Shown here in pieces: positions 7,940 through 61,614 of a stretch of DNA of 64,000 nucleotides (its first letter is position 1; each line of letters begins with the position of its first letter). Position numbers and translations under genes: made by a program. The notes under the pieces were generated by a model, which did not search any database, was not told the origin of the DNA, and saw nothing but the letters and a program-made list of their open reading frames with translations. The DNA lies in IMG/VR virus record IMGVR_UViG_3300008267_000005, positions 1 through 64,000 of that record, one strand, 5' to 3'. This DNA comes from a virus.

Positions 7940-8572
7940 ATGAGTGAAAAATCTGATCCCGTTGTTAGTCTAAAAGATATTTATGGAGATCCTGGTAAAA
8001 GAACTGGTCATTTCGGAGTTTTTTACCGGGGTATTAACTATGTTAAATGTCCATTTGATTATGTCTTATATCAGATGGTTATAACTGAGTTGAATCCAGA
8101 TTTAGTAATTGAAATAGGAACTTTCAATGGTGGTGGTGCACTTTATATTGCTGATATTTTAGAGAAGTTAGGAGATGGTGTGGTACACACTATTGATTTG
8201 AAAGAAAGGGAGTATGACAATCAGGTAATGGAGAATCCCAGGATCAAGTGTTACTTTGGAGGTTACCAAAGTTATGATTTAAGTGAATGTGAGGGTTATG
8301 AAAATATCCTCGTGATCGATGACGGATCACATGTTTATGATGATGTTAGGGATGCTTTTATAAAGTTTAATCCCTTGGTCAAAAAAGGCGGCTATTATAT
8401 TATCGAGGACGGGATTGCTTCTAACCAGCCATCGTTAAAAGGTGGCCCTAATAAATTTGTTGCTGAACTAGACCAGTATTCAGACAGATTTAGAATCAAT
8501 ATTGGAATTTGTGATTTCTTTGGAAAGGGTGCCACTTTCAATCCTTATGGATATTTAGTCGCAGTGGAATAG
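7940..8572 (+). CDS. CmcI-family methyltransferase-like protein
   Basis: The product is 210 aa and resembles the cephalosporin hydroxylase / rhamnosyl O-methyltransferase family (CmcI, PF04989), which are class I SAM-dependent enzymes often found with polysaccharide genes. Visible: SAM-binding loop VIEIGTFNGGGALYIADIL at about 54-72, acidic LVIDDGSHVYDD near 119 as metal/SAM site, and GGYYIIEDG near 150. The full usual domain length is present. A surface-glycan or virion-glycan methylation role is inference, supported by other glycan-type enzymes in the window. Confidence 0.85.
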   Translation: MSEKSDPVVSLKDIYGDPGKRTGHFGVFYRGINYVKCPFDYVLYQMVITELNPDLVIEIGTFNGGGALYIADILEKLGDGVVHTIDLKEREYDNQVMENPRIKCYFGGYQSYDLSECEGYENILVIDDGSHVYDDVRDAFIKFNPLVKKGGYYIIEDGIASNQPSLKGGPNKFVAELDQYSDRFRINIGICDFFGKGATFNPYGYLVAVE

Positions 8573-8575
8573 TCC

Positions 8576-9721
8576 TTAATTATGCGATATAGGAGAAATG
8601 GTTGGACATGGATAAAATGTGACAGGATAAGTTCTTGAATCCCAGCATCCTAATTCAGTAGTGGCAGTTAGTGTGACATTATATGTTCCTGGTTGTGTAT
8701 AGATGTGTGTGGGAGATTGCTCTGTAGATGTTGTACCGTCTCCGAATTCCCAAAGCCAAGCAATTATTGGACTATGGATTGATGTTGATGAATTGATGAA
8801 TTCTGCTGAGGAGTCTTCACAGAAGCATGAATTTTCTGATGAAAAGTTCACTTGCGGGTCTGCTGGATTTATGAATGTGGTCAAGGTAGCAACACATCCG
8901 GAAAAAGAGGTTAGAGTACAAGTTATTTGATCGTAAATGTCTGGATCAACCGTGATTGATTGAGAGGTTTCTCCTGTGCTCCATTGGTAACTTGCAAACC
9001 CTGGTGGAGCGGTGAGATTTGCAACACTATCTTGAACACAATACAAGACCTCTAGTTCCATTGGCTGACATCCGATTGCATCTATATAAGCATATCCAAA
9101 ATGTGCACCAAGATCACAATCACCTGTTTTGAATTCCAATGTTACTGATTGGCCAATAAATGCACTAAGATCCACTCCTACTGTTGTCCAGTTTCTATAA
9201 ACAATATTAATAGGGTTTCCTTGCCAATCTATACCTGGACAGGTTTGAAATCCAGGAAGATTGGATGATGAGCTCACCATATATTGGGTACATGGAATGG
9301 GATTGCCTCCTGCAATAACTTGGGTTTCAAATCTTGGCTGTTCATCATCGATGTGTCCAGGATCTTCAAATACCACAGCATATTGGTAGGTAAAGAGACT
9401 TGAGTTTGCTGTCACTGTATAAGTGTAGCTTAGGCTTTCTGCTCTAGATCCTCTATTTGGATTTCCTAGTCTAGCTGAGAAATTTCCCCCCAGTGGTGAA
9501 ACTACTGGTACTTGGTTGCATGTTCTGGGATCTGTTCCTGATCCAGATGTGATAAGGTGTCTGGTCGCAACTAATCCTGCATTGGGCAAGTCTATTGGGC
9601 AGCAAAACCCAGTTCTTCCTGACCAACCTGAAAAATTTCCTAGTTCAAAATCTGCATTGTCACACTGAGAAAATGAAGAAAGACTTGCTATGAAAAACAC
9701 TATTGTTACCCAGTGTTTCAT
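8576..9721 (-). CDS. secreted protein with PKD domain
   Basis: The product is 381 aa. A Sec signal peptide covers residues 1-19 (ends SFSQ). A beta-rich, Cys-containing region (about 20-210, with NADFELGNFSGW at its start) follows, then an Ig-like part and a PKD domain (about 288-370) with the hallmark WLWEFGDGTTS and GTYNVTLTAT. Such domains occur in Bacteroidota surface adhesins. It ends in PTISPISHN, the same ending as the protein of 10295-10852 (PTISPISHD), encoded with different codons. It has no T9SS sorting domain of its own. Last gene of a three-gene leftward operon. Confidence 0.9.
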   Translation of the reverse strand: MKHWVTIVFFIASLSSFSQCDNADFELGNFSGWSGRTGFCCPIDLPNAGLVATRHLITSGSGTDPRTCNQVPVVSPLGGNFSARLGNPNRGSRAESLSYTYTVTANSSLFTYQYAVVFEDPGHIDDEQPRFETQVIAGGNPIPCTQYMVSSSSNLPGFQTCPGIDWQGNPINIVYRNWTTVGVDLSAFIGQSVTLEFKTGDCDLGAHFGYAYIDAIGCQPMELEVLYCVQDSVANLTAPPGFASYQWSTGETSQSITVDPDIYDQITCTLTSFSGCVATLTTFINPADPQVNFSSENSCFCEDSSAEFINSSTSIHSPIIAWLWEFGDGTTSTEQSPTHIYTQPGTYNVTLTATTELGCWDSRTYPVTFYPCPTISPISHN

Positions 9722-9731
9722 ATTTTTGTTT

Positions 9732-10295
9732 TTATCTTATTAGTACAACGTGTCCTATTTTACTTCCTGTTGCCCCGTCTTTTCCTGTCCATTCCGCTTT
9801 ATATATATAAACGTCATTTTGCACATAATAATCTCCTCCTCTGAAAGAGCCATCCCAAAGATCTTCTATTGAGTGGGATTCATAAATTTGTAATCCCCAT
9901 CTATCGAATATTTTCCATTCTATTTTCACAATACCCATTCCATTTGGACCCCACCTGTCGTTTATCCCATCAGCATTTGGTGTGAATGCGTTGGGAAAAT
10001 AGATTATTGATTCCATGCACTCAATAACATGGACCCAATAAGTTTTAGGGTTTATTGGACAGCCACTTTCAAAATTAGCTACTATTTCATAATTCCCAGG
10101 AGTGTCCCAAGTGATAGTGACTGTATTTGAATGTGAAAGAGTATCTGAGCCAACTGTCCAGAACCAACTCCCCACAACATTCGATGAAGAGTAATAAGTG
10201 AAAGTGTTTTTATAATCTTCGCAAAGTTCTATTGTTTGCTGTGTAAAGGAGAATTTGCTCAGCACCAATAGCACGAACAAAACTAAACGTTTCAT
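9732..10295 (-). CDS. secreted protein with T9SS type B sorting domain
   Basis: The product is 187 aa. Signal peptide at 1-18 (ends FTQ), a short Ig/PKD-like domain (about 20-90: WFWTVGSDTLSHSN), then a complete gliding-motility-associated C-terminal (CHU_C, type B) domain at about 95-187: IYFPNAFTPNADGINDRWGP, IFDRWGLQIYES, LWDGSFRGG, and GHVVLIR at the very end. In Bacteroidota this domain sends proteins through the type IX secretion system to the cell surface. Its start overlaps the stop of the upstream gene (TAATG), so translation is coupled. A phage gene with a host T9SS address is unusual. Confidence 0.92.
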   Translation of the reverse strand: MKRLVLFVLLVLSKFSFTQQTIELCEDYKNTFTYYSSSNVVGSWFWTVGSDTLSHSNTVTITWDTPGNYEIVANFESGCPINPKTYWVHVIECMESIIYFPNAFTPNADGINDRWGPNGMGIVKIEWKIFDRWGLQIYESHSIEDLWDGSFRGGDYYVQNDVYIYKAEWTGKDGATGSKIGHVVLIR

Positions 10296-10852
10296 TAGTC
10301 GTGACTAATGGGAGAAATAGTCGGTACTGGATAAACCGTCATTGTTCCTGTGGCAGTAAATACACATTCTCCTACTGTGTATGTGTATGTCACAACGTGA
10401 TCCCCAACACCTGCTGTGCTCGGGCAAAACTGAGCACCAACAACTCCTGGACCACTCCATGTTCCTCCAAGGGGTGTTCCTATTAGATTAGTGCATGGTT
10501 CATCAAAACAAAAAGTCATTGGGGTGACAACAGGTGTTTCGTTGTAAATAAAAACATCCATATTGACTGTTGGGCCCACACACCCGTATTGGTTTGTAGG
10601 AAAAACAGATACTGCAGTGCCTATTAATCCAGGAGCAGCTCCTGCCCAGTCAACATTAATAATGTTGGTGCCTTGACCTGAAAGTATAACACCAGGAGCT
10701 TGAACAGTCCAGGTGTAGGTGTTCCCAGCTTCATTATCAACTTGGTAAATTGATTCCGTTGATTGGAAGCAAACAGTGTCTGGGCTTAGTGTTGATTGGG
10801 AAAACAGAGCCACAGGAACAAGTGCTAAAAGGGTAATAAATAGTTTCCTCAT
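10295..10852 (-). CDS. secreted Ig/PKD-like protein
   Basis: The product is 185 aa. Signal peptide at 1-18 (ends LFSQ) followed by two Ig/PKD-like modules (about 20-105 and 108-175) with GNTYTWTVQ, GTWSGPGVVG and VVTYTYTVGECVFTATGTMT. It stops at VPTISPISHD, the same ending as the last gene of the operon. First gene of the operon 10852-8576 and translationally coupled to the T9SS type B protein. It probably forms a surface or adhesin complex with it, which is inference. Confidence 0.88.
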   Translation of the reverse strand: MRKLFITLLALVPVALFSQSTLSPDTVCFQSTESIYQVDNEAGNTYTWTVQAPGVILSGQGTNIINVDWAGAAPGLIGTAVSVFPTNQYGCVGPTVNMDVFIYNETPVVTPMTFCFDEPCTNLIGTPLGGTWSGPGVVGAQFCPSTAGVGDHVVTYTYTVGECVFTATGTMTVYPVPTISPISHD

Positions 10853-20754: not shown

Positions 20755-20810
20755 GTCTTCTGTAATCTTTTTTGGAAACGGTGTATAATTTTTCAAACCA
20801 TTTCCAAAAT

Positions 20811-22475
20811 ATGAAATATTCACTTCTATTATTTTTTACACTTTTTTATTTGCAGATCTTTTCTCAGTCTTGTGCAGGTGATACTATTAATCCCTGGTAT
20901 GTTAACTTTAATCCCAATGTGACTTTAGGTTGCAATGATGATTTATCTTCTGCTATTCCTGATGTCTTTGACAACTGTGATACTCTAGTTGAGCTTGTAT
21001 TCTACGAAGAGGTTTTTTCTGGAGACTGTGCAGGATCTATCAATATATTCAGGGTTTATAGAGCTTTTGATGATCAAGGCAACCAAGCAGTTGAGTCACA
21101 AAACATCTATATTGTTGATGAATCATCCCCTTCTTTTGTTAATCTACAAAGTCAAATTGTAGTGGGATGTGGATCTGATGATACTCTCGCATATCCTCAA
21201 GTCATTGATAATTGCTCATCGGACATTGTTCTTACTTATCAAGATACTGAAGTTCAGTATTTTGGATGTGATTCTTCTTTCTATAGAATTTGGACCGCAA
21301 CAGATGAATGCGGTAACTCTTCTTATTTCAGTCAAAATATTTCTTTTCAGGACTTATCTGAACCCACTATAAGTAATTGTCCGCCAGATCTTGTTTTAAG
21401 TACGGGAGAAACATTACCAGAGGGTTACGAGATCTTAGTCTCTGATAATTGTGACCAGAACCTTACAGTTAATTATGAAGAATTCTATTTAGGTGATAGT
21501 ACACCCAATTGTTCGATATTTACTCCACCTGCATCAAGTGGTGGTAATTGCGACGTTATCGTAAATGGTGGGTTAGTTGATTGGGGAATGCAATTGATGA
21601 ACTTACCTGTTCTCCATAGGTTTTATAGTGTTGAATCTGGACAGATAACTCAAATTGATAGTAACACAATCAGAATATCTGCAATGCTGACAAACGTATT
21701 CAACAACCAAAATGGATTTCTTGTTGATGTTACTTTTACTGGAGCATATACTTGGGAAGAATGGACTTCTTTATCTTATCCCACAAGCTTCAAAGCAGAC
21801 TGCAACGGCAGTGAGTCAAATCACGATTCGTGGATCTACTATCTATTAAACAATGGCGATGGTGCAGAGTTAACTGGATTCGGCGATTATACAGGATCTG
21901 CAATAAGTCTAACTCACGCTCCTGCAAATCAATATTTTGGTTTTCAGTACGGGAACGGAGCCAATAACTATAATTCCTCAGCTAATGGATTTGGTGGTTG
22001 GTTCAATTACTCTGGAGTATTTCCGAGTCAACCAGGACAGTTCGCTCCAATTTCTGGAGCGGGTGATTTTGCTTTTGATACCGATTGCTCAAATGAATAC
22101 ACTTTGATTAGACAATGGACAGTTACAGATTGCTCAGGAAATTCATCTGTTTGCTCACAGACGATTAGATTTTTAAACACCGGAGAGAACGCTAATAGTG
22201 AATTGGATGCAGAAGATTTACCAAGCAAGGAAATAGGAAGGAAAGAATCGTTACAAATCCAATCATCTCCAAACCAGGTGTTCTTTAAAAATCTATCGGA
22301 TAGTCAAGGAACAATTGAAGTATATGACATGAATGGCAAGAAATGTTTAGAGACAAACATTCAACCTGAAAACATAATGTCGATTGATTACGATAATCAC
22401 CCCTGCGGGTTATACATGTATGTGTTCACTACCCCTGAAGTTATAGAAGTTAAAAATTTCTTAGTTGGCAATTAG
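20811..22475 (+). CDS. large secreted protein with T9SS type A sorting domain
   Basis: The product is 554 aa from ATG 20811 (signal peptide at 1-19, ends IFSQ; an upstream frame start at 20772 would bury it). Two or three HYR/Ig-like repeats at about 25-220 share SDNCD/VDNCS and DECGNSS/DCSGNSS motifs. A unique beta-rich domain follows at about 235-420 (WIYYLLNNGDGAELTGFGDY). The C-terminal 70 residues (IQSSPNQVFFKNLSDSQGTI, VYDMNGKKC, GLYMYVF, KNFLVGN) form a T9SS type A sorting domain. Predicted cell-surface adhesin or modifying protein of the infected host. Confidence 0.9.
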   Translation: MKYSLLLFFTLFYLQIFSQSCAGDTINPWYVNFNPNVTLGCNDDLSSAIPDVFDNCDTLVELVFYEEVFSGDCAGSINIFRVYRAFDDQGNQAVESQNIYIVDESSPSFVNLQSQIVVGCGSDDTLAYPQVIDNCSSDIVLTYQDTEVQYFGCDSSFYRIWTATDECGNSSYFSQNISFQDLSEPTISNCPPDLVLSTGETLPEGYEILVSDNCDQNLTVNYEEFYLGDSTPNCSIFTPPASSGGNCDVIVNGGLVDWGMQLMNLPVLHRFYSVESGQITQIDSNTIRISAMLTNVFNNQNGFLVDVTFTGAYTWEEWTSLSYPTSFKADCNGSESNHDSWIYYLLNNGDGAELTGFGDYTGSAISLTHAPANQYFGFQYGNGANNYNSSANGFGGWFNYSGVFPSQPGQFAPISGAGDFAFDTDCSNEYTLIRQWTVTDCSGNSSVCSQTIRFLNTGENANSELDAEDLPSKEIGRKESLQIQSSPNQVFFKNLSDSQGTIEVYDMNGKKCLETNIQPENIMSIDYDNHPCGLYMYVFTTPEVIEVKNFLVGN

Positions 22476-28475: not shown

Positions 28476-29225
28476 ATGAAGCATTTGAAGCATATAAATC
28501 AATTTTTGAAAATTGACGAACAGCTATTTGGAGCGGATGTGAGAAAATTTGGAGAGACCTTATTTGGAAAGGGTGACCAAAAATCATCCTCTTCTTCAGA
28601 TGCAACTCCCGTTAAAAAATCTGGAACTTCACAAGGTGAACCAATTGTAACTCAAAAAACAGAGAAAGCACCTGAATCAGCAAAGGATCTTGGATCATTC
28701 GGTAAATTTACTCAAGGAGAAAAACCAACTAGCCCTTTGGTTGTAGTATATGGAGGAACTGATGTCGGGGGAAGAAAGAGCGGAGTTTATATGTACGATT
28801 ACTTTGCAGGATTTAATAACAGATATAATCTCTTCGTAGCAAATGATCACAACGTAGATGGTACTGGGGCTTACACAGCAATTCAAAATAAGGTTGGAAA
28901 CTACCCATCAAAAAAGATACTTTATCTTTTCTCTGGAGGATATAGACCTGGAAAAAAACTTCTTAAAGAGGTTGGAGCTGGTGAATTTGATAAGATTTAT
29001 CTTGTAGATATTTGGATGGGCAATCAAGACGTAGGAAGTTTTTATACAAATCTTGCTAAAGAAAATCCGGATAAGGTTGAATATTACTACACTTCCTTTG
29101 GCGGAAATAATTCTTCCGCTACTTCGTCTATATCAAGTTCAGTAAAGACGAAATTATCCCAGAAAGAAAACAGTCACATGAAGACCAATGAGGATGCAGT
29201 AAAATCTTTATCTAGTTACGCATAA
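28476..29225 (+). CDS. tagged alpha/beta hydrolase-like virion protein
   Basis: The product is 249 aa and begins MKHLKHINQFLKIDEQLFGA, the best form of the window's N-terminal tag, with the protease-like site IDE|Q. A Ser/Lys/Thr-rich linker follows (about 30-80), then a possible alpha/beta domain (85-215): SPLVVVYGGTDVGGRKSGVY, KKILYLFSGGY, DKIYLVDIWMGN. The order of strands suggests a hydrolase, yet no catalytic triad is certain. It is followed 10 bp later by a tagged peptidoglycan hydrolase, so both are probably packaged. Confidence 0.78.
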   Translation: MKHLKHINQFLKIDEQLFGADVRKFGETLFGKGDQKSSSSSDATPVKKSGTSQGEPIVTQKTEKAPESAKDLGSFGKFTQGEKPTSPLVVVYGGTDVGGRKSGVYMYDYFAGFNNRYNLFVANDHNVDGTGAYTAIQNKVGNYPSKKILYLFSGGYRPGKKLLKEVGAGEFDKIYLVDIWMGNQDVGSFYTNLAKENPDKVEYYYTSFGGNNSSATSSISSSVKTKLSQKENSHMKTNEDAVKSLSSYA

Positions 29226-39441: not shown

Positions 39442-41565
39442 ATGCTTAAATCCTCTAAAATATCTTTACTGGTTTGTATTGTTTTAATGACAATATTCTT
39501 TTCGGTAAAAACATTAGTTCTTTTCGAGACCGTACAAAGTTCTAGGTTAACTAGGATAACCGAATATATTTGTTTCCTTTCTTTCGCTCCCTTCTTTTTT
39601 ATGCTCATTAGGGATCTCAAAATCAAAACGAAAGACACAATATTTCTGAATGATTATTCTAAGAAAATTAATTCTTCCCTGATTAAACAGGCATATAATG
39701 AAATTTACTATTTTGGTGATATCGATCAAGCAGCAAGGTCTGTAACTAAAGAAATAACGGAAACGATTGATGCAGATAGAGCTTCTATTTGGTTGTATAA
39801 CAAAGATAGATCTGGGATTGTTTGTCAGCAATTGTATTCAAAATTAGAAGATTCATTCCAAGACGGAATAGAGTTATTCGAAAAAGATTTTTCAGAGTAT
39901 TTTGAAGCTTTGAGAAATGAACCAATAATAGTTGCAAATGATGCTGAAAACCATCCCTCCACAAGATGTTTTACTGATCCATATCTAAAACCTTTAGGGA
40001 TAAAATCGATGCTGGATGTTCCTATTTGGTACAAGGGATCAAATATTGGTGTGATTTGTATAGAGAATCTCACCTCTAGGAAATGGAGAAAAATAGAAGT
40101 TAATTTTGCACAGATCCTTTCTTCGCTATATTCGTTTGGATTCTCGATGCACGAAACCAATGATTTGCTTAGGAGAATCAAAGAAACTGAAAATTTTATC
40201 GACAAATCATCTCTGGTTTCAATAGCTGATAAAAACGGAAAAATAACTTATGTCAACGAAAAATTTTCTGAAGTTTCTGGTTGGAGTCTAGAAGAAGCTT
40301 GTGGTCAAGATCACTCTATTGTAAACTCCGGTCTACAACCTGATGGATACTGGGGGAAAATGTATGAGAAAGTTTTGAATGGACAAATATGGAATGACAT
40401 TGTAGTTAACAGATCGAAGAATGGACATTTATATTATGTTGATACTTATATCAAGGCAATTTTTGATTCTGGGGGTAAACTAGAGGGATTCCATTCCATT
40501 CGACAAGATGTAACTGAAGTTATAAGAAAAGAAACTGAGATTAGAAATAGGATGAATGCTATCAATCAATCCAATGCTGTTATAGAATTTGATTTAGACG
40601 GGAATATAATGTTTGCTAATAATCTTTTTTTGGAAACTATGGGTTACGATTCTTTTGATGAAATAAAAGGAAAGAATCATAGTTTGTTTGTTTCAGAAGA
40701 GGAGAAAAATAGTAGGGAATATTCCAACATGTGGAAAAATCTATGCATGGGAATTTATTTTTCAAACGATGTAGTTAGGATCAGAAAAAATGGGGAACAG
40801 GTTTTTCTTCAATCCACCTATAATCCAATTTTAACTACTGATGGGAAACCATATAGAATAATGAAAATTGCTACTAATGTTACTGAATCTGTTAAACAAA
40901 AAAATGAAATAGAAAAAAAGAACACTTATTTGGAACATGCTGCTAAAATTTTAAGACACGATATGCACTCTGGGATTAATACGTATATTCCTAGAGGACT
41001 AGGATCTTTAGAAAGAAGGCTCAAACAGGAAGATATAGATTCGCTTAAAATTGAAGCTCCAATCAAAATGATCAAAGAAGGTCTTAGACATGCCCAGAAG
41101 GTTTACAAGGGTGTTTATGAATTTACAAATTTAGTAAAGAAGGATGTAGTTCTAAATAGAACAGATTGTAATTTAAAAATAATCCTACAGGACTATCTTT
41201 CTGCAACTGCTTATCATAGTCAAGTTATCATTTCAGATCTTCCAACAATCAGCGTGAATGAACCACTATTTTGTACTGCTGTAGACAACCTAATAAGGAA
41301 TGGACTTAAGTACAATGACTCGGAAACAAAATTTGTCAAGATTTATTTTGAAGAAGATACTCTTTATATACAGGATAATGGAAGAGGTATAACACAGGAA
41401 GACTTTGAACATTTATCTAAACCCTATACTAGGAAAGAGGGGCAAAAGGAATCTGGAACCGGATTAGGTTTAAACATATGTGTAGCAATTCTTCACGAGC
41501 ATGGATTTTCTATAACTTGTGAGAAAAACCAAATAGGGACCAAGATGAAAATAAAGATGCTATAA
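39442..41565 (+). CDS. membrane sensor histidine kinase (GAF-PAS-PAS-HK)
   Basis: The product is 707 aa. Two spans at about 7-28 and 42-56, a GAF domain (about 75-250), PAS domain 1 (about 255-370: ADKNGKITYVNEKFSEVSGW) and PAS domain 2 (about 375-490: IMFANNLFLETMGY), then the kinase core. The H-box is LRHDMHSGINTY with predicted phospho-His506, unlike the common HDLRNPL/HELRTPL. ATP site: N-box DNLIRNGLKYN, G1 DNGRGIT, G2 GTGLGLNI. All ATP-binding motifs look intact. First gene of an operon with a second kinase and a receiver protein; its stop overlaps the next start (TAATG). Confidence 0.93.
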   Translation: MLKSSKISLLVCIVLMTIFFSVKTLVLFETVQSSRLTRITEYICFLSFAPFFFMLIRDLKIKTKDTIFLNDYSKKINSSLIKQAYNEIYYFGDIDQAARSVTKEITETIDADRASIWLYNKDRSGIVCQQLYSKLEDSFQDGIELFEKDFSEYFEALRNEPIIVANDAENHPSTRCFTDPYLKPLGIKSMLDVPIWYKGSNIGVICIENLTSRKWRKIEVNFAQILSSLYSFGFSMHETNDLLRRIKETENFIDKSSLVSIADKNGKITYVNEKFSEVSGWSLEEACGQDHSIVNSGLQPDGYWGKMYEKVLNGQIWNDIVVNRSKNGHLYYVDTYIKAIFDSGGKLEGFHSIRQDVTEVIRKETEIRNRMNAINQSNAVIEFDLDGNIMFANNLFLETMGYDSFDEIKGKNHSLFVSEEEKNSREYSNMWKNLCMGIYFSNDVVRIRKNGEQVFLQSTYNPILTTDGKPYRIMKIATNVTESVKQKNEIEKKNTYLEHAAKILRHDMHSGINTYIPRGLGSLERRLKQEDIDSLKIEAPIKMIKEGLRHAQKVYKGVYEFTNLVKKDVVLNRTDCNLKIILQDYLSATAYHSQVIISDLPTISVNEPLFCTAVDNLIRNGLKYNDSETKFVKIYFEEDTLYIQDNGRGITQEDFEHLSKPYTRKEGQKESGTGLGLNICVAILHEHGFSITCEKNQIGTKMKIKML

Positions 41566-42152
41566 TGAAAACGCTATTATTAGTTTTCCTCCTAATTTCT
41601 TCTTTGGTTTATTCACAAAACCAATATCCCATTCAAACTATTTTTCGTGGGGACTCTGTAGTTATTCTGACAATCGCACAAAGTGAAGAGATTAACAGAA
41701 CTATCGATGAACAAAATCTGTTGATGCTAAATAAATTTAAAGCTTTTAAAAACACAACGGATAGTCTTAATCGTTTTATTTCATTACAAAATAAAGAAAT
41801 TGATAGTCTCAAAAATTCATTAGATTCCTCTTTAGCATGGAATAACGCTCTTTTAGATAGCATATGGAAATGGTCACTTTCACCTTCGATTATTTTCACC
41901 TCAAGTCCTTTAGATACTGAGCTTTATGTTTTAGACCTTTCAAGATATTTTCTTACAACTGACGACTATGGAATTTTTTTACCAAGGATGAAAGACAGTG
42001 AATATAGAAGATTCTTAGAATATTCTGAAAACGGACAAGGTCCAGGATCAAGAGAAAGGGGATTTGGGGGACTAGGTGATTTGGAACTTGTTGGTCAAGA
42101 AAGAATCAGACAAAGAAAAGTTTGGAAACACAAATCACAATGGAAAAAATGA
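41565..42152 (+). CDS. exported coiled-coil protein of the signalling operon
   Basis: The product is 195 aa. Signal peptide at 1-17 (ends VYSQ), then a coiled coil at about 48-95 (EEINRTIDEQ...SLKNSLDSSL), and a globular, Gly/Arg-rich C-terminal part. Predicted periplasmic. Located between the two kinase genes with TAATG and ATGA overlaps, so it is made with them and could be the partner or ligand-binding subunit of the kinase periplasmic parts; inference. Confidence 0.82.
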   Translation: MKTLLLVFLLISSLVYSQNQYPIQTIFRGDSVVILTIAQSEEINRTIDEQNLLMLNKFKAFKNTTDSLNRFISLQNKEIDSLKNSLDSSLAWNNALLDSIWKWSLSPSIIFTSSPLDTELYVLDLSRYFLTTDDYGIFLPRMKDSEYRRFLEYSENGQGPGSRERGFGGLGDLELVGQERIRQRKVWKHKSQWKK

Positions 42153-43405
42153 AAAATGCCCTTATCCTTTTAATTCTATTCTTACCTTTATTTTCTTTAT
42201 CGCAAGATACAGTAGTGGACAGAAGAATACGCCCTGTATGGGTTGAACCAGAAAAGGTGTTTGAACCTAAGGAGGAAAAAGTCATAACCGCAACAATCTT
42301 GGAAGATGAACTATTTGTAGTTGAAAGCGTTAAAAAAGATTTACAGTTCTTAGAGACGTTACCAAAAACTTACGAAGAACTTCCCAAGCAGGATTTAAAG
42401 AATATTCTTCAAGAGATTGATAATAAAATAAATAAGCTTATTCAAGAGAGAGATTCGTTACTCCAAGCAAAAGTTGTTAATCAAAAATTAGTCGAAACTA
42501 AAGAGGGAACAATTAAAACTCTTAAAAAGGAAAAGAACATTGTTACCTTAACTCTTGAATCTGGAGATTTAAAAGACGAAAATGGAAATCTTATAGTTGA
42601 CAAGGAAATTTTAAAGACTGAAAAAGAAACATATAAGAAATATCTTTATACTGCAATTATTGGATTAGTTCTTTCAATACTTGGAGTTATGGTTCTTTTA
42701 CAGAGAAAAACAATCAGGGTCAAAGACGGAGAGATAGAAAGCCAGTTAGACGATATAAACAAAAAGAACACTTATTTAGAGCACGCAGCCAGAATTATCA
42801 GGCACGATATGCACTCGGGAATTAACACATACATTCCTAGGGGACTGACTTCTTTAGAAAAGAGGATATCTCCAGAAGAAGTACAAAATCTTAAGATAGA
42901 GACCTCTTTAAAAATGATTAAGGATGGATTGGCTCACACTCAAAGGGTTTACAAGAGTGTGTACGAGTTTACTAATTTGGTAAAGCAAAATGTTGTTTTA
43001 GATAAAAAGTTGATTAGTATTTCCGAGATATTGCAAAACTATATGAGCAACACCTCTTATTCAAACCAGGTTAAACTTGAGTCGCTTCCTGACTTAGAGG
43101 TTAATGCAGTATTATTTTGTAATGCACTCGATAATCTTATAAAGAATGGACTTAAATATAATGACAACGAGGATAAATATGTTAGAATTTACATGGAAGA
43201 AGAAAATCTCGTAGTTCAAGACAACGGGAGAGGACTAACAAGAAAACAGTTTGAAAAAATCATCAAACGCAAAAGGGAAGAACAAGAGGAAGGGGAAATG
43301 GGACTGGGTTTGAGTATTTCTAATGTAATTTTTAAGGAGCACGGATTTGAGATGTTGTGTGATAAAAATGACATCGGAACCAAAATAATAATTAAACTGA
43401 AATAA
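42149..43405 (+). CDS. second sensor histidine kinase with periplasmic coiled coil
   Basis: The product is 418 aa from ATG 42149 (ATGA overlap; an in-frame ATG lies 9 nt earlier). Signal peptide MKNALILLILFLPLFSLSQD, a periplasmic region with a coiled coil (about 85-160), one span at about 165-185, a short linker helix, then a kinase core. The stretch KKNTYLEHAARIIRHDMHSG (phospho-His219) through PRGL is nearly identical to that of the first kinase, as are the N-box DNLIKNGLKYN and G1 DNGRGLT; G2 is MGLGLSI. The two kinase cores are paralogues with different sensors, so they probably share one response regulator. Confidence 0.92.
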   Translation: MKNALILLILFLPLFSLSQDTVVDRRIRPVWVEPEKVFEPKEEKVITATILEDELFVVESVKKDLQFLETLPKTYEELPKQDLKNILQEIDNKINKLIQERDSLLQAKVVNQKLVETKEGTIKTLKKEKNIVTLTLESGDLKDENGNLIVDKEILKTEKETYKKYLYTAIIGLVLSILGVMVLLQRKTIRVKDGEIESQLDDINKKNTYLEHAARIIRHDMHSGINTYIPRGLTSLEKRISPEEVQNLKIETSLKMIKDGLAHTQRVYKSVYEFTNLVKQNVVLDKKLISISEILQNYMSNTSYSNQVKLESLPDLEVNAVLFCNALDNLIKNGLKYNDNEDKYVRIYMEEENLVVQDNGRGLTRKQFEKIIKRKREEQEEGEMGLGLSISNVIFKEHGFEMLCDKNDIGTKIIIKLK

Positions 43406-43409
43406 AATT

Positions 43410-43841
43410 ATGATTGATTCAATTTTGTTAGTAGACGATGAGGACTTATTCCACTTAGTTTTTGAGGATTCCTGTTCATTGTTAGATATAACTCTTTCTT
43501 TAAAGACCTTGAACAGCTCAGATGAAGCTGCTAAACTTTTCCAGCAGTGGCAGAAAAACCCAGCAGAAAAACCAGAATGTGTTTTTGTTGACTTGAATAT
43601 CATAGGTTCTTCCTTTGATGGTATCGAGCTTATTAGAAAAATCAACTTTGAATACGGAAATCACGTTGTGATAGGTATAATTTCATCATCTAATGAACCC
43701 GATGAACAGGCTAAAGCAATACAAGCGGGAGCTCAATTTTGGATTATAAAATCTGATGATATTGAACCAAGACTTGAAGAATTTAAAAAGGATTACGACG
43801 GATACAAAAAAAGAACTGCACCTTTCAAAGTTTATAAGTGA
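43410..43841 (+). CDS. single-domain response regulator (receiver)
   Basis: The product is 143 aa and is a bare receiver domain. Acidic pair Asp9/Asp10 in ILLVDDED, phospho-acceptor Asp61 in CVFVDLN, Ser in IGIISSSNEP, and the conserved Lys in FWIIKSDD are all present. The last about 20 residues are basic. No DNA-binding output domain is attached, so it may act by protein contact, as CheY or as a phosphorelay intermediate. It is 4 bp after the second kinase gene and overlaps the next gene by 4 nt (GTGA). Confidence 0.92.
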   Translation: MIDSILLVDDEDLFHLVFEDSCSLLDITLSLKTLNSSDEAAKLFQQWQKNPAEKPECVFVDLNIIGSSFDGIELIRKINFEYGNHVVIGIISSSNEPDEQAKAIQAGAQFWIIKSDDIEPRLEEFKKDYDGYKKRTAPFKVYK

Positions 43842-49144: not shown

Positions 49145-52100
49145 TTATGTAGTTGGAATTTCTCTTCCCCATTTTTTATTTAACTTCTCCTTGTATTCTT
49201 TATATCTTCCCCACTGAGAACCCAATTGAAAATATGTAGATCCTCCATGTAGAATCCATTTTTTCTTATTTTCTTTCTCATCTGGGTAATTATAGGGTTC
49301 CGTGTAATCACACAATATAGTCTTTCCATTTTCTCCTAATTGTACACAAAAATCTTCAACGTATAAATGAAAATCGTCAAATGTATTTTCGTCGAAATTG
49401 AGATCTAAGTTTTCTGTATCAATAACTATAAAACATGAATCCGCTGTTAAAATATCTCTCGACTCTTTTGAATCTGAAGAAATTATTTGATTGCCATTAG
49501 ATCCTGCCATCCCGAAAAATTTAGAATCTGGGTTTAATTTTACGGTTTCTTTTATTTGATCTAAAAGATCATTAGAAAATGCTACATCCTCGTGGCACAA
49601 AATAAGCCATTTTGTTTTACATTCACTTATTATTTTATTGTAATTATATGCTGGATTTTTTGAGTCGTCCGTGGATATAGATTGATATTTTCCATCTATT
49701 TTTTCTAGAGAAGGACCTAGGTATTTTTCAAAAGCCTCTTTATTGTGAGAAATCCATCCAAATGTAAAATCCAAATTGGAGGATTTATATTTTTTATCTC
49801 CAATATGTACTATAAACATTATATCATCGTACCTATTTTTTTGATTTCTAAGATCTATAATCTCTATAGATTCCCTGTATTCCTCAGGTAAGCATTCTTT
49901 TAATATTGCAGTATGATTTATATCTTGAATATCCTCGATAATCATAACACTATTTTCTTTTGCTAGTGATATGTAATTTTTGATAAAAAACTTTTGACTC
50001 TCTAATGTATGAGGTCCATCATCTATCAAAATATCAAATCCTTCGGGATTTTCTTCTTTGATTTTTTCTAGTGATTCCTTAGTGTAAGCATCAAAAATGT
50101 GGAATTTATATCTTTCCTGATTTAATCTGTCCAATATATTTTTTCCTATCTGATCTTTAATGTCTGCCATTACTAGATTTGAATCCTCCAAATACTCGTG
50201 CCATAAAAGGGATGATCCCCCGTATTGAACTCCAACCTCCAGTATTGATGATTTTTTTCCAATGTATTTAGATAGGATCCTTTCGTAAGTTTCTATGTAG
50301 CTATGAAGTGTTCCTTTGTCTGTTCCGCCCTCGCTATCAAATCCGTTTATTCTATTAAAGTCTAGTATTCCAGATAAACTTTTTTTTGATTTCAGAAATT
50401 TCTTTCTTACTCCATTAGCATAACTGTTACTTATGTTGTTGTTTTCAGTGAGTGGATCTATATTATTTTTTTTCTCAAATTCATCCGCTTTTTCTAAAGG
50501 AACACAGATATGATCTGACGGATAAGAATGTTCCATCAGATAGATTTCGTAATTCAGGCCTCTTATTTTTTCAAATATGTTAGCTGAAGAAAAACCAAAT
50601 TTAGAAAGCTGGAATTCTTCTATCTCTATTATTATGATAGGCCGATTTTTTTCTATAGTTTTCGTAGCTCCCTCTATGACAAAATTTTCGTACCCCTGAA
50701 CATCAATCTTAATTAAATCTACTTTCTCTATGTTTATAGAATCAAGAGTTATAATTTCTATATTTTCCCCGTTTAATCCCACACCCAGGTCACCTATATT
50801 TAGTCCATTTTCGTGATAATTTATAGGAGAAAGATTGGATTGTGTTATTATGCTACCTAATCCTTTTTTATATTGAATTATGTTTTCAAATTTATTTTTC
50901 CTGATACTTTCTTTCTGGAGAGAATAAATTAAAGATTGAGGCTCAAAACTGTGGACTGTTTTACATAAGCTAGATGCTATCAATGAATGCCATCCGTAGT
51001 TACTTCCTATGTCGACAAAAACGGATTCTTTATCTAGGTAATTTCTTAGAAAAGAAACTATATGAGGCTCCCAGGACTCGCCCTTATTTATTCCTCTTCC
51101 GATAGCATCATTGCTTAATGTTAGAATAGAAAACCCCTCTATTTTAGTTTCAAGAACTTTATCTCCGATTCCTTCCAACTGTAATAGTGTCTTAATAGAA
51201 TCTGTAATTTCACGGGATCTATTATATTGGTGGATTACCGATGGTATTTTTTTATTGACGTGGATCTTTAATTCATTCACCTCTATTGATTCAGGTGCTA
51301 CTCCACAGGTAATACCTATTGTTGCGAAAAAATCCCCGTTTTTCTTGATGCTCGGATTTACAAAATCCTCTATAGAATTATAGCAGATATAGTTGTGTAT
51401 TCCTTGATCCATCATGTCATAAAAGAAGTCTTTCCTCTCATTATACATTCTGATCATTTCTGAGGAGCTTTTTTTACAATACTTAAGAATATTCCCATAT
51501 GATCCTACAATAGTTCCACAGCAAACTATTTTCTCATTTTTAATTTTTTCTAAGTATTCTTCACCGAAGCATTGTATTATCCATCTAGAATTGAATTTGT
51601 TCGAACCTATTGATTCTGATTCATCCTCCTCCGCAAAAAATATGAATTCACCATCTAATCCATCAAATGGGTCGGATTGAAAATATACATCAGAAACATC
51701 CGATAGAAGAACATTTTTATATGTATTTTTCTCTTTTAAAAAATCTAAGAATTTGATGAACCTGTAATTATTAGGTTGCGTTTCAAGTATTTGCCCTGAT
51801 TCAAATGAGAGTATTTCTACTGAATTCTTTTTTAAGTAATCCAATTTATCCTGCGATGCTGATTCTTCAATAATCAGATATACATCGTCATTAAGATTTT
51901 TACTTCTAAATGAATCTACAAAAATTCTTATATCTTCTAATGAAAGATTTATGGCGGCTCCTAATACTAGGTTATTTTTGTTTTTTATTTTATTCCCATA
52001 TTTTTCCTCGTTTTTTGAAAGAATTCCCCAGTTTTTAGGAAGATATGTATTTTCTAAAGGATCTATTTTTTGGAATGTTCTCCATTCGTCAAAAAGATCT

Positions 52101-52774
52101 AATCCCTCTTTCACCTTTCTTATTACCTCATCCTTTATCTTAAATCTTTCCTGGTTTAATTCCTGGTGAGCAGTACTATTGATTTTGTTAATTATAATTT
52201 CAGGACCTCCAAAATAAGATAAATGCCATCCTCCTCTTTCCCACCATTGACAATTAAAATCTAGCCTGCACTCATCTGGGGTTCTTCCTTTTAAAGTCTC
52301 CCAGTCTACTATTTTTGCATGATACCATTTTTCTGGATATACTAATTTGTTGTAAATAGAAGCCCAATAATGATCCATCTCTAGCTTAAATAATCCTTTC
52401 ATTGGATAACTAGTTTTTATGTAGTTTAGTGTGCTCGAATCTGGGATTTCGTCGAGATCACTAATTACAACTATATCATCATTTGATAATCCTAACGAGT
52501 ATAAAGTAGGCATAATTGAATTCCTTTGATATTTTTCTCTTCCCCAAGTATCTAAGTGCAAAGGAAAATTTACTTTAAGATGGATAATTTTATCAATCCA
52601 TTTTTCGTATCTCCACTTATTCTCTTCAAAGAAAAATATTTTATTTTTTCCTGGGTGTGTTGTGTTTGCCTCTACCAATATAAATTGATCCACAACATCA
52701 TAAATTTCAGCAAGTCTAAGCTCCAGAAGTTCGAATTCATTATTAAATGTAAAACAGTCTATTATTTTTTTCAT
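49145..52774 (-). CDS. 1209-aa multidomain glycosyltransferase/methyltransferase
   Basis: Five modules can be traced. (1) About 1-265: GT17-like (MKKIIDCFTFNNEFELLELR, VISDLDEIPD, GGWHLSYFGG). (2) About 268-545: a second GT-A-like domain (VLLSDVSDVYFQSDPFDG, CCGTIVGS). (3) About 555-790: FkbM-type SAM methyltransferase (VFVDIGSNYGWHSL, VDLIKIDVQGYENFVIEGA). (4) About 810-1000: second class I methyltransferase (ILEVGVQYGGSSLLW, DILIDDGPHTLES, VMIIEDIQD). (5) About 1010-1209: GT2/DUF4422-like domain (KTKWLILCHEDVAFS). It is probably a polymerising or capping enzyme for a surface or virion glycan. Codons are A/T-rich even for this genome. Confidence 0.88.
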   Translation of the reverse strand: MKKIIDCFTFNNEFELLELRLAEIYDVVDQFILVEANTTHPGKNKIFFFEENKWRYEKWIDKIIHLKVNFPLHLDTWGREKYQRNSIMPTLYSLGLSNDDIVVISDLDEIPDSSTLNYIKTSYPMKGLFKLEMDHYWASIYNKLVYPEKWYHAKIVDWETLKGRTPDECRLDFNCQWWERGGWHLSYFGGPEIIINKINSTAHQELNQERFKIKDEVIRKVKEGLDLFDEWRTFQKIDPLENTYLPKNWGILSKNEEKYGNKIKNKNNLVLGAAINLSLEDIRIFVDSFRSKNLNDDVYLIIEESASQDKLDYLKKNSVEILSFESGQILETQPNNYRFIKFLDFLKEKNTYKNVLLSDVSDVYFQSDPFDGLDGEFIFFAEEDESESIGSNKFNSRWIIQCFGEEYLEKIKNEKIVCCGTIVGSYGNILKYCKKSSSEMIRMYNERKDFFYDMMDQGIHNYICYNSIEDFVNPSIKKNGDFFATIGITCGVAPESIEVNELKIHVNKKIPSVIHQYNRSREITDSIKTLLQLEGIGDKVLETKIEGFSILTLSNDAIGRGINKGESWEPHIVSFLRNYLDKESVFVDIGSNYGWHSLIASSLCKTVHSFEPQSLIYSLQKESIRKNKFENIIQYKKGLGSIITQSNLSPINYHENGLNIGDLGVGLNGENIEIITLDSINIEKVDLIKIDVQGYENFVIEGATKTIEKNRPIIIIEIEEFQLSKFGFSSANIFEKIRGLNYEIYLMEHSYPSDHICVPLEKADEFEKKNNIDPLTENNNISNSYANGVRKKFLKSKKSLSGILDFNRINGFDSEGGTDKGTLHSYIETYERILSKYIGKKSSILEVGVQYGGSSLLWHEYLEDSNLVMADIKDQIGKNILDRLNQERYKFHIFDAYTKESLEKIKEENPEGFDILIDDGPHTLESQKFFIKNYISLAKENSVMIIEDIQDINHTAILKECLPEEYRESIEIIDLRNQKNRYDDIMFIVHIGDKKYKSSNLDFTFGWISHNKEAFEKYLGPSLEKIDGKYQSISTDDSKNPAYNYNKIISECKTKWLILCHEDVAFSNDLLDQIKETVKLNPDSKFFGMAGSNGNQIISSDSKESRDILTADSCFIVIDTENLDLNFDENTFDDFHLYVEDFCVQLGENGKTILCDYTEPYNYPDEKENKKKWILHGGSTYFQLGSQWGRYKEYKEKLNKKWGREIPTT

Positions 52775-59331: not shown

Positions 59332-61614
59332 TTATTTAGCCCATTTGAAAGTTTCTGTTCTATCCATATATTGAGCTTTGATAATGTAAATACCACTTGG
59401 TAATTCACTATATCTGTTAATGTCCAATAAAGCTCCAGTAATTGTGTAGATCTCTACAGCAATTGGATAATCGTCTTCAATATAAACACCTTCAGGATCG
59501 TCAAGAAGAGGATAATTACCGATGATATCTTCTCCACTTGTTGCAAGGCGATTGAAAACAAGATCAACCCTATTGTTAGTTGGATCAGTGTCCCCCATTG
59601 TTCCGTTCACACTTATCACATCCAATCTGAAAGTGTTCGAAGTTCCTACTGGAACTGCACATCTTGTTGGGTGACAAAGATTCACACTTATATAAGTGTT
59701 GTTTGCAGGAAGCAAAGTTGATTGTCCAGGAAGCAAAGTGCCTGTCCAAGTTGAATTTGTTACACATCCATAAGCTGCTGTGCAATCAATCCATCTTCTT
59801 GTGTAATTGATCTGGTTGATTGTTGTAGTTCCTGTGTTAACCGCTCTCCATTGTGTGTTTACTATCTGGAGAGAAGTCGTCCAGGGATTTGCTACTGGTT
59901 GAACAAGTTCCACACGAAGGTCTGTTCCCGTCATAGATGGATTTGCAACATTGAAAGCTTTGAAACTTGTGTTATCCGAAGTTATAGTTTCTTCTGCTGC
60001 ATTGTCATAGTTTATGGTTACGAATATGTAACGTGTACCTGCCATCCCATCAACTGTATAGGAGAAAGATCTAGTTACAGAATTATTTCCTCCACCTAAG
60101 CTCACACTATCGACACCAATTATAATGTCATCTGCATCACCCAATGTAGAGTTTGCTGAATATCTATATTGTACGCCAACAAATGTGGCAAAGGTAGTTG
60201 ATACATTTACTTCTTCAGTAACTATAGCGTTGTAGTTTACTAAAATTGTCTCTCCTAAGTTTACACTAGCTGGAGTTACTATTACATTGTTAACAGTGTA
60301 GTTAGAAACTATTGTTGGTGGAGGTGGAGGTGGACCACCAGGTGTGGGTGTTGCAATAACTGCATTTTTAAGATTAATCCTTCCATAACCTAATTCGTTA
60401 CTTCTAGTACTGTAAGGCCAAGTTGGATTATTAGTGTAAGTGTAACCACCAACCTTTTCACAAGTTGAAGATAGAATTTGCAAAATCTCATCATCAGTTA
60501 ACTCCCAGTTTTTATAAGCGATAACTGCTGAAGCTGCAGCTGTTATTGGACAACTGAAAGATGTCCCGCTAACGCTCTTGTAGTCAGTTGGATCATATCC
60601 TTCGGCACCAAGTCTGTCAGTGGTTCTAATTGCTGAACCGGGTCCAGAAATGTCACAGATTTGACCATAATTCGAAAAACTAGCTCTTGTATCTGATGAG
60701 GTTGTTGCACCAACCCCCCAAACTCCATTGTAGTTAGCTGGATATTGAGCTGCAGTTCCTGAATAACCATTACCGGAAGAAGCAAATACCATCATTCCTT
60801 TGCCTCCTCTTCCGTTTGCCCTTGCATTCAAAAAAGCATTTTCAAGAGTTGCAGAGTATGTGCTACCACCATAAGACATCGCAATAGCAACACAATTGGG
60901 ATTTGCCATTGCTGCATTAACTGCTGCAACTTGAATTCCGGTAGAAGTTCCAAAAGTTCCTCCTGCATAAACCTGCGACATAATGTTGACAGGCATAACC
61001 TTAACAAAGTTGTTACCAACACTGCTAACACCAATTCCGTTATTGGTTCTTGCTGCTATTGTACCAGAGCAAGCAGTACCATGTTTATCTTCTGAGTTAA
61101 CATAGGGAACTGAGTTAGTACCATTCACAGCATTAAACGGGCTGTCGACATTTCCAACAAATTCGGGAATTGTCATATCAAGTCCACCATCAAACATAGC
61201 AACAGAAACCCATTGGTTGTCTGTTGGAAGTAAATCCCAAGCTTCATCTGCATCAATGTCTTTGTCATTTGCTTGTCTCAAATGCCAACAAGAGGCAAAT
61301 TCAGTATCATTGGGAATATAATCGAATTTGATTTCTTCCATTCTATCTCTTTCGATTATACCAAATAAACCACTATCCTCACAGAGTGCTGTGAGAAGAT
61401 CAAAATCATTTGTTCTTACAACATAGATGTCAAGCTGATCTAAATAGCTCACAATCTCTACATTGTAAAAATCCAAAAATTCGTCCACCTGATGCTTCCT
61501 TGCATCAAGCTTCGGTGTAAGTAACACTTGTCTACCTATATCATCTATCAAACTTTGTCCGAGTGACAGAAAAGAAAGTAGTACAAATGAAACAACTGCT
61601 AATACATTTTTCAT
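59332..61614 (-). CDS. secreted subtilisin-like protease with T9SS type A sorting domain
   Basis: The product is 760 aa. Signal peptide at 1-20 (ends LSLGQ), a propeptide at about 21-105, then an S8 peptidase domain (about 130-425) with a complete triad: Asp142 (SVAMFDGG), His178 (DKHGTACSGT) and Ser352 (SGTSFSCP), plus oxyanion Asn282 (SSGNG). A Pro-rich linker (about 437-448) leads to two CARDB/Ig-like domains (about 455-700). The last 60 residues (IAVEIYTITGALLDINRYSE, LPSGIYIIKA, ETFKWAK) form a T9SS type A sorting domain. Predicted surface-attached or released protease made by the infected cell. Confidence 0.93.
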   Translation of the reverse strand: MKNVLAVVSFVLLSFLSLGQSLIDDIGRQVLLTPKLDARKHQVDEFLDFYNVEIVSYLDQLDIYVVRTNDFDLLTALCEDSGLFGIIERDRMEEIKFDYIPNDTEFASCWHLRQANDKDIDADEAWDLLPTDNQWVSVAMFDGGLDMTIPEFVGNVDSPFNAVNGTNSVPYVNSEDKHGTACSGTIAARTNNGIGVSSVGNNFVKVMPVNIMSQVYAGGTFGTSTGIQVAAVNAAMANPNCVAIAMSYGGSTYSATLENAFLNARANGRGGKGMMVFASSGNGYSGTAAQYPANYNGVWGVGATTSSDTRASFSNYGQICDISGPGSAIRTTDRLGAEGYDPTDYKSVSGTSFSCPITAAASAVIAYKNWELTDDEILQILSSTCEKVGGYTYTNNPTWPYSTRSNELGYGRINLKNAVIATPTPGGPPPPPPTIVSNYTVNNVIVTPASVNLGETILVNYNAIVTEEVNVSTTFATFVGVQYRYSANSTLGDADDIIIGVDSVSLGGGNNSVTRSFSYTVDGMAGTRYIFVTINYDNAAEETITSDNTSFKAFNVANPSMTGTDLRVELVQPVANPWTTSLQIVNTQWRAVNTGTTTINQINYTRRWIDCTAAYGCVTNSTWTGTLLPGQSTLLPANNTYISVNLCHPTRCAVPVGTSNTFRLDVISVNGTMGDTDPTNNRVDLVFNRLATSGEDIIGNYPLLDDPEGVYIEDDYPIAVEIYTITGALLDINRYSELPSGIYIIKAQYMDRTETFKWAK

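Follow-up and report, generated by a model that had tools for sequence, protein, structure and literature searches.

The window analysed here comprises the initial 64 kb of a viral record of 174,942 bases. Three genes of this window, A, B and C, are three separate open reading frames and form a compact operon on the minus strand, with B in the middle. These genes, their main features and two further T9SS candidates of the window are as follows.

8576..9721, minus strand: gene C, 381 amino acids, with a signal peptide, a conserved N-terminal domain and a PKD domain, without a T9SS domain
8579..8611, minus strand: tail of C, PCPTISPISHN (from the sequence and an alignment)
9732..10295, minus strand: gene B, a putative carrier of 187 amino acids that combines a T9SS type B sorting domain with a signal peptide and a PKD-like domain
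9735..10001, minus strand: T9SS type B sorting domain of B (TIGR04131 / CHU_C), 48.8-50.9 bits, cut-off 35
10293..10297, minus strand: TAATG, overlap of the stop of A and the start of B with one base shared, read from the sequence
10295..10852, minus strand: gene A, 185 amino acids, with a signal peptide, a PKD_6-like domain and a second Ig-like domain, without a T9SS domain
10298..10330, minus strand: tail of A, PVPTISPISHD (from the sequence), with an ISH[DN]-type end that is kept in relatives
20772..22475, plus strand: HYR_4C protein with a borderline T9SS type A domain, separate from the A-B-C cassette
59332..61614, minus strand: subtilase (Peptidase_S8, 99.5 bits) with a possible T9SS type A end, separate from the cassette

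The record encodes a large terminase, two gp20-like portal proteins, a gp23-like head protein and a gp21-like protease. Because it carries these T4-like structural genes, the record is, judged by its gene content, that of a T4-like phage, and bacterial contamination was ruled out on the same grounds. A T4-like portal gene was also present on 13 of the 36 records searched. The gp20-like portal genes stand in tandem in one phage (L006 3454-6707, which equals positions 147454-150707 of the record, outside the window). Within the window, a histidine-kinase-like pair of 707 amino acids (GAF, PAS and HATPase domains) and 427 amino acids (HATPase) is followed by a response-regulator receiver protein at 39442-43841 on the plus strand, possibly a phage-encoded two-component system. 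A protein of 1209 amino acids (49145-52774, minus strand) combines a glycosyltransferase family 17 domain, an FkbM methyltransferase, another methyltransferase and a GT2-like domain. The end of a CmcI/rhamnosyl O-methyltransferase-like gene (7940-8572, plus strand) adjoins gene C on the opposite strand. Additionally, a start segment of the type MKHxKxxxxFxxxE occurs on many open reading frames, for example those at 28476, 29236, 45995, 57421 and 62264, and was also seen in the viral contig L044.

The initial annotation had proposed a T9SS type B address at the C-terminus of B, and this was borne out by the model searches. Residues 99-187 cover the whole TIGR04131 model with a significant match (48.8 bits, E 5.9e-13, curated cut-off 35), and the Pfam model CHU_C scored 49.1 bits (cut-off 27). 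Since TIGR04131 gave zero matches when it was run on 14 control genomes, the match of B is not due to chance. The predicted signal peptide of B was found by a rule-based check and appears as an N-terminal helix in the AlphaFold2 model of the protein (pLDDT 90). Type B cargo needs PorP/SprF-like shuttles and five motifs in the C-terminal sorting domain (CTD) (PMC12618676), and it is apparently anchored by PorP-like proteins (PMC9143113). B thus shows two features of such cargo, a CTD above the cut-off and a predicted Sec signal peptide, and lacks a shuttle encoded nearby, which is frequent but not general in hosts. A PorP/SprF-like shuttle (PF11751) was absent from all 34 phage records in which it was sought, so that B would have to rely on a shuttle of the host. 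These sequence features lend good support to the prediction that the phage protein B is directed to the T9SS of the host.

Together with two type A proteins elsewhere in the window, three cargo proteins had originally been counted, of which only B is clear. The HYR_4C protein passed TIGR04183 narrowly (24.9 bits vs. a cut-off of 23; 28.2 bits in the genome search) and stayed below the cut-off of the Pfam type A model (20.9 bits vs. 27), and it is therefore borderline. The subtilase has a C-terminus of type A look, but its TIGR04183 scores (14.8 and 18.9 bits) are both under the cut-off of 23, and it is only a possible cargo protein.

Furthermore, gene B had at first been viewed alone, whereas it is part of a conserved cassette with tailed partners. 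A matches PF19408 with 37.9 bits (cut-off 25) and C matches PF18911 (PKD_4) with 66 bits (cut-off 27). The NCBIfam search of A gave zero matches, the T9SS models gave none above noise on C, and neither protein matched TIGR04131 or TIGR04183. Signal peptides were predicted on A, B and C each by the rule-based check, and these calls rest on this check and on the N-terminal helix of the models. A read-through fusion of the three genes was ruled out, since their frames differ and each open reading frame has its own predicted signal peptide. The TAATG-type spacing of A and B was counted 52 times among related cassettes, and the one-base overlap suggests that the translation of both genes is coupled; the gap between B and C comprises ten bases. 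The AlphaFold2 model of A reached a mean pLDDT of 90. In comparison to its copy in the related phage L010, A showed a dN/dS of 0.05, which by this measure corresponds to strong purifying selection; for B and C, dS was saturated.

T4-like phages commonly have Ig-like decoration proteins, and a fold search with B gave generic tandem Ig-like matches only, with RB49 Hoc among the weak ones. It is nevertheless very improbable that A, B and C are decoration proteins of the virion, as all three possess predicted signal peptides, the CTD score of B is specific, and none of them matched any PHROG structural family.

The C-termini of A and C are nearly identical (PTISPISHD vs. PTISPISHN), and no IxH[DN] end beyond these two was found in the remaining open reading frames of the record. 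In the model of A, the last strand stops at residue 174, and the tail (residues 175-185) lies outside the fold. An intein-like His-Asn ending, prompted by the HN end, was ruled out; nothing follows after it, and TN and TD variants exist.

The arrangement of a type B protein with tailed neighbours is found again in related phages, namely in L010, L011 and dozens of contigs. A, B and C are all present in L010 (78-81% identical) and, in a different gene order, in L011 (39-48% identical), and the ISH[DN] end is retained on A and C in both. A tailed partner was defined as a neighbour that has a predicted signal peptide and terminates in [ILVFM]x[HT][DN]-COOH. Six scans of the viral collection yielded 93 distinct small type B proteins on viral contigs, many of which are fragments; the size of this set is not a census, because similarity to the cassette was the criterion by which it was gathered. 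One or more tailed partners were detected for 84 of the 93 proteins, and two or three for 73. The nine exceptions include contig-edge cases, mini type B proteins and two variant tails (SDN in L041; IFH and YKQ in L073). When only B was scanned for, a tailed neighbour was found for all B proteins away from contig edges (52/52).

Of the 154 distinct tailed partners, which represent at least six families, 74 are of family A, 51 of family D and 17 of family C; the twelve others fall into five further blast clusters. Such an end was present in 13 of the 1,442 other distinct open reading frames of the same loci, mostly in apparent further copies of partners. Within pairs of unrelated partners of one cassette, the choice between H and T agreed in 70 of 71 cases (60.8 expected by shuffling) and that between D and N in 64 of 71 (53.0 expected), a concordance that is inflated by the common ancestry of the cassettes. 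Large phages also encode mini type B proteins of 111-126 amino acids, which are little more than a signal peptide and a CTD (L108 3914-4249, L109 3521-3856, L113 4509-4859, L114 4338-4718); among these four, only that of L108 has a tailed neighbour, a C protein. Tailed C proteins without a detected type B protein occur in the L026 group and in L044, which are possibly fragments. No cultivated phage with the cassette was found; the matches in INPHARED were a 4-kb fragment and two uncultured phages of 635-642 kb that have fused forms. In some phages, possible T9SS enzymes adjoin the cassette, i.e. subtilases (L059, L064) and a chondroitinase B (L023).

The tail might itself be a minimal T9SS signal that is read by the translocon or the shuttle of the host, and A and C would then be exported in parallel to B. 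It sits at the extreme C-terminus, the place of T9SS signals, is common to unrelated proteins and is found on C proteins of contigs without a detected B. This reading is unlikely, however, considering that tailed partners and small B proteins co-occur, that nine residues are far below the 150-235 given for type B signals (PMC12618676), and that A and C lack a match to any NCBIfam T9SS model.

Long phage proteins with a built-in CTD had a tailed neighbour in none of 16 cases. In the uncultured 635-kb phage LR745206, a chain of 732 residues comprises A (401-558) and then the PKD domain of B and the CTD, in the order of the operon. At the position of the tail of the split phages, this chain reads QQPLILSILPSSQY, i.e. 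it has a linker in place of the tail. The first half of A is fused to the CTD in L022 and L023, where C is the tailed partner, and D is fused to the CTD in L012. From these fused forms and the missing tailed neighbours of the long proteins it follows that, in these sets, the tail accompanies modules that are off the CTD chain. Unsplit type B proteins of 491-511 amino acids, preceded by a large secreted protein, were observed in L069 (1936-5453) and L075 (1741-5294); the secreted protein of L069 is an M43-like metalloprotease.

In Bacteroidota, the relatives of C are mostly long CTD-bearing chains where the gene is complete. With the profile of A (E<=1e-22), matches were obtained in 2 of 395 Bacteroidia genomes, both within long frames, and the profile of D matched 66 of the 395 at 77 places, nearly all of them in frames at least several hundred residues long. 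Overall, the profiles of A, D and B found their host matches mostly within long frames, and the short host frames inspected were gene fragments or contig ends without a tail. Among the sampled Bacteroidia genomes, a stand-alone copy with a tail was not encountered, although a rare one could have escaped, since no more than eight candidates were scored per genome. Inside long CTD proteins, the tail motif showed no enrichment (8 occurrences in 29,597 residues), and a role of the tail as a common inter-domain linker is unsupported inside long proteins, though the tail occupies the linker position.

Long host proteins containing the same modules, and a tail at the position of a linker, would also be expected if acquired host adhesin genes had fallen into pieces and the tails were functionless linker remnants. 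Such a decay is decidedly improbable in view of the lacking enrichment of the motif in long CTD proteins, the occurrence of the tail in unrelated families, the strong purifying selection on A (dN/dS 0.05) and the predicted signal peptide on every single piece.

An explanation with about an even chance of being correct is that A, B and C are the pieces of a split T9SS surface protein that assembles itself, with B bearing the address and A and C riding along via their tails. In general terms, it is tentatively proposed that phages encode multi-subunit T9SS cargo, in which passengers without a T9SS domain are joined non-covalently to a small CTD carrier via the [ILVFM]x[HT][DN] tail. Docking and secretion of A and C together with B are inferred from sequence data. 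A, B and C would enter the periplasm by Sec, where the tails of A and C would attach to B. The host T9SS and a PorP/SprF-type shuttle of the host would then export B, and A and C would be carried along in the folded state. The complex would be displayed on the infected cell like the giant PKD-type surface proteins of Bacteroidota, with the tail replacing the covalent linker. In this way, A could be combined with C, D or other partners on one anchor, as in a swappable display kit, which may alter how the infected cell adheres or exposes its receptors. In L108, where a mini type B protein of signal peptide and CTD lies beside a tailed C, the carrier model would require docking on the CTD itself.

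The split model is favoured by the partnered B proteins (84/93), the unrelated families of tailed proteins, the long CTD proteins without tailed neighbours (0/16) and the fusions. The gene overlap of A and B, the position of the tail outside the fold of A, the agreement of tail types within cassettes and the lacking enrichment of the motif in long CTD proteins also count in its favour. The tailed C proteins without B in the L026 group and in L044 speak against it, unless these contigs are fragments. Alternatively, A and C could remain periplasmic or sit on the inner side of the outer membrane, where the tail would bind a host factor, e.g. a protein of the PorP/SprF or PorE type, and surface export by the host would be blocked or retuned by the cassette. 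This would fit with the absence of a shuttle from the phages (34 records) and with the cargo-shuttle pairing and the PorP-PorE-cargo complexes of the hosts (PMC9143113). PKD and adhesin-type modules are, however, typical parts of surface proteins, and in the fused forms the same modules sit on the CTD chain, which makes a periplasmic function clearly unlikely.

Phage-encoded T9SS cargo is not new in itself, since three type A T9SS cargo proteins encoded by a Cryophage were reported by Bellas et al. in 2020 (PMC7468147). From the initial annotation, the reading as T9SS-addressed phage cargo therefore holds by sequence, but not that of a new kind of phage-host interplay. Phage-encoded T9SS sorting domains and the presumed use of the host machine are common to both phages (PMC7468147). 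The cargo of Cryophage differs in being type A and in consisting of enzyme-like single chains (endoglucanase, GH39, PA14), and its description mentions neither a type B domain nor tailed partners nor an operon (PMC7468147).

Among host proteins, SprB and Fjoh_3952 of Flavobacterium johnsoniae and PG1035 of Porphyromonas gingivalis resemble B in the combination of signal peptide and TIGR04131 domain (PMC12618676, PMC9143113), and host cargo of this type is expected, like B, to need a PorP/SprF-like shuttle. Host type B cargo carries its modules and the sorting domain on one chain, often beside a shuttle gene, whereas the phage cassette consists of separate tailed module proteins and no shuttle was found in the 34 records. 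The cassette is likewise not a giant PKD surface protein with modules and CTD on a single chain, but three open reading frames. The sole PDB sequence that matched the B profile is GhpA, the grappling hook protein of Aureispira (PDB 9flp), with residues 5801-5887 at its C-terminal end; unlike B, it is a bacterial single chain of 5898 residues.

Phage type B cargo, a cassette with tailed partners and a piggyback export by the T9SS were not found in the open-licence papers searched, which is weak evidence of absence. The unusual part is the cassette with its tailed partners. Flavobacterial gliding-machinery proteins were proposed as phage receptors (PMC7345892). In the light of these proposals and of the possible T9SS enzymes near some cassettes, superinfection exclusion, altered adhesion and shuttle competition are reasonable guesses; a role of the cassette in excluding competing phages or in occupying the shuttles of gliding adhesins is likewise a guess. 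If the tails dock passengers, the T9SS could export proteins without an own T9SS domain, which would extend the known rules, and a short tag would be at hand with which proteins could be displayed on the surface of Bacteroidota. If the proposed explanation is true, large phages of Bacteroidota would, across a wide group, use a modular kit to reshape the surface of the cells that they infect.
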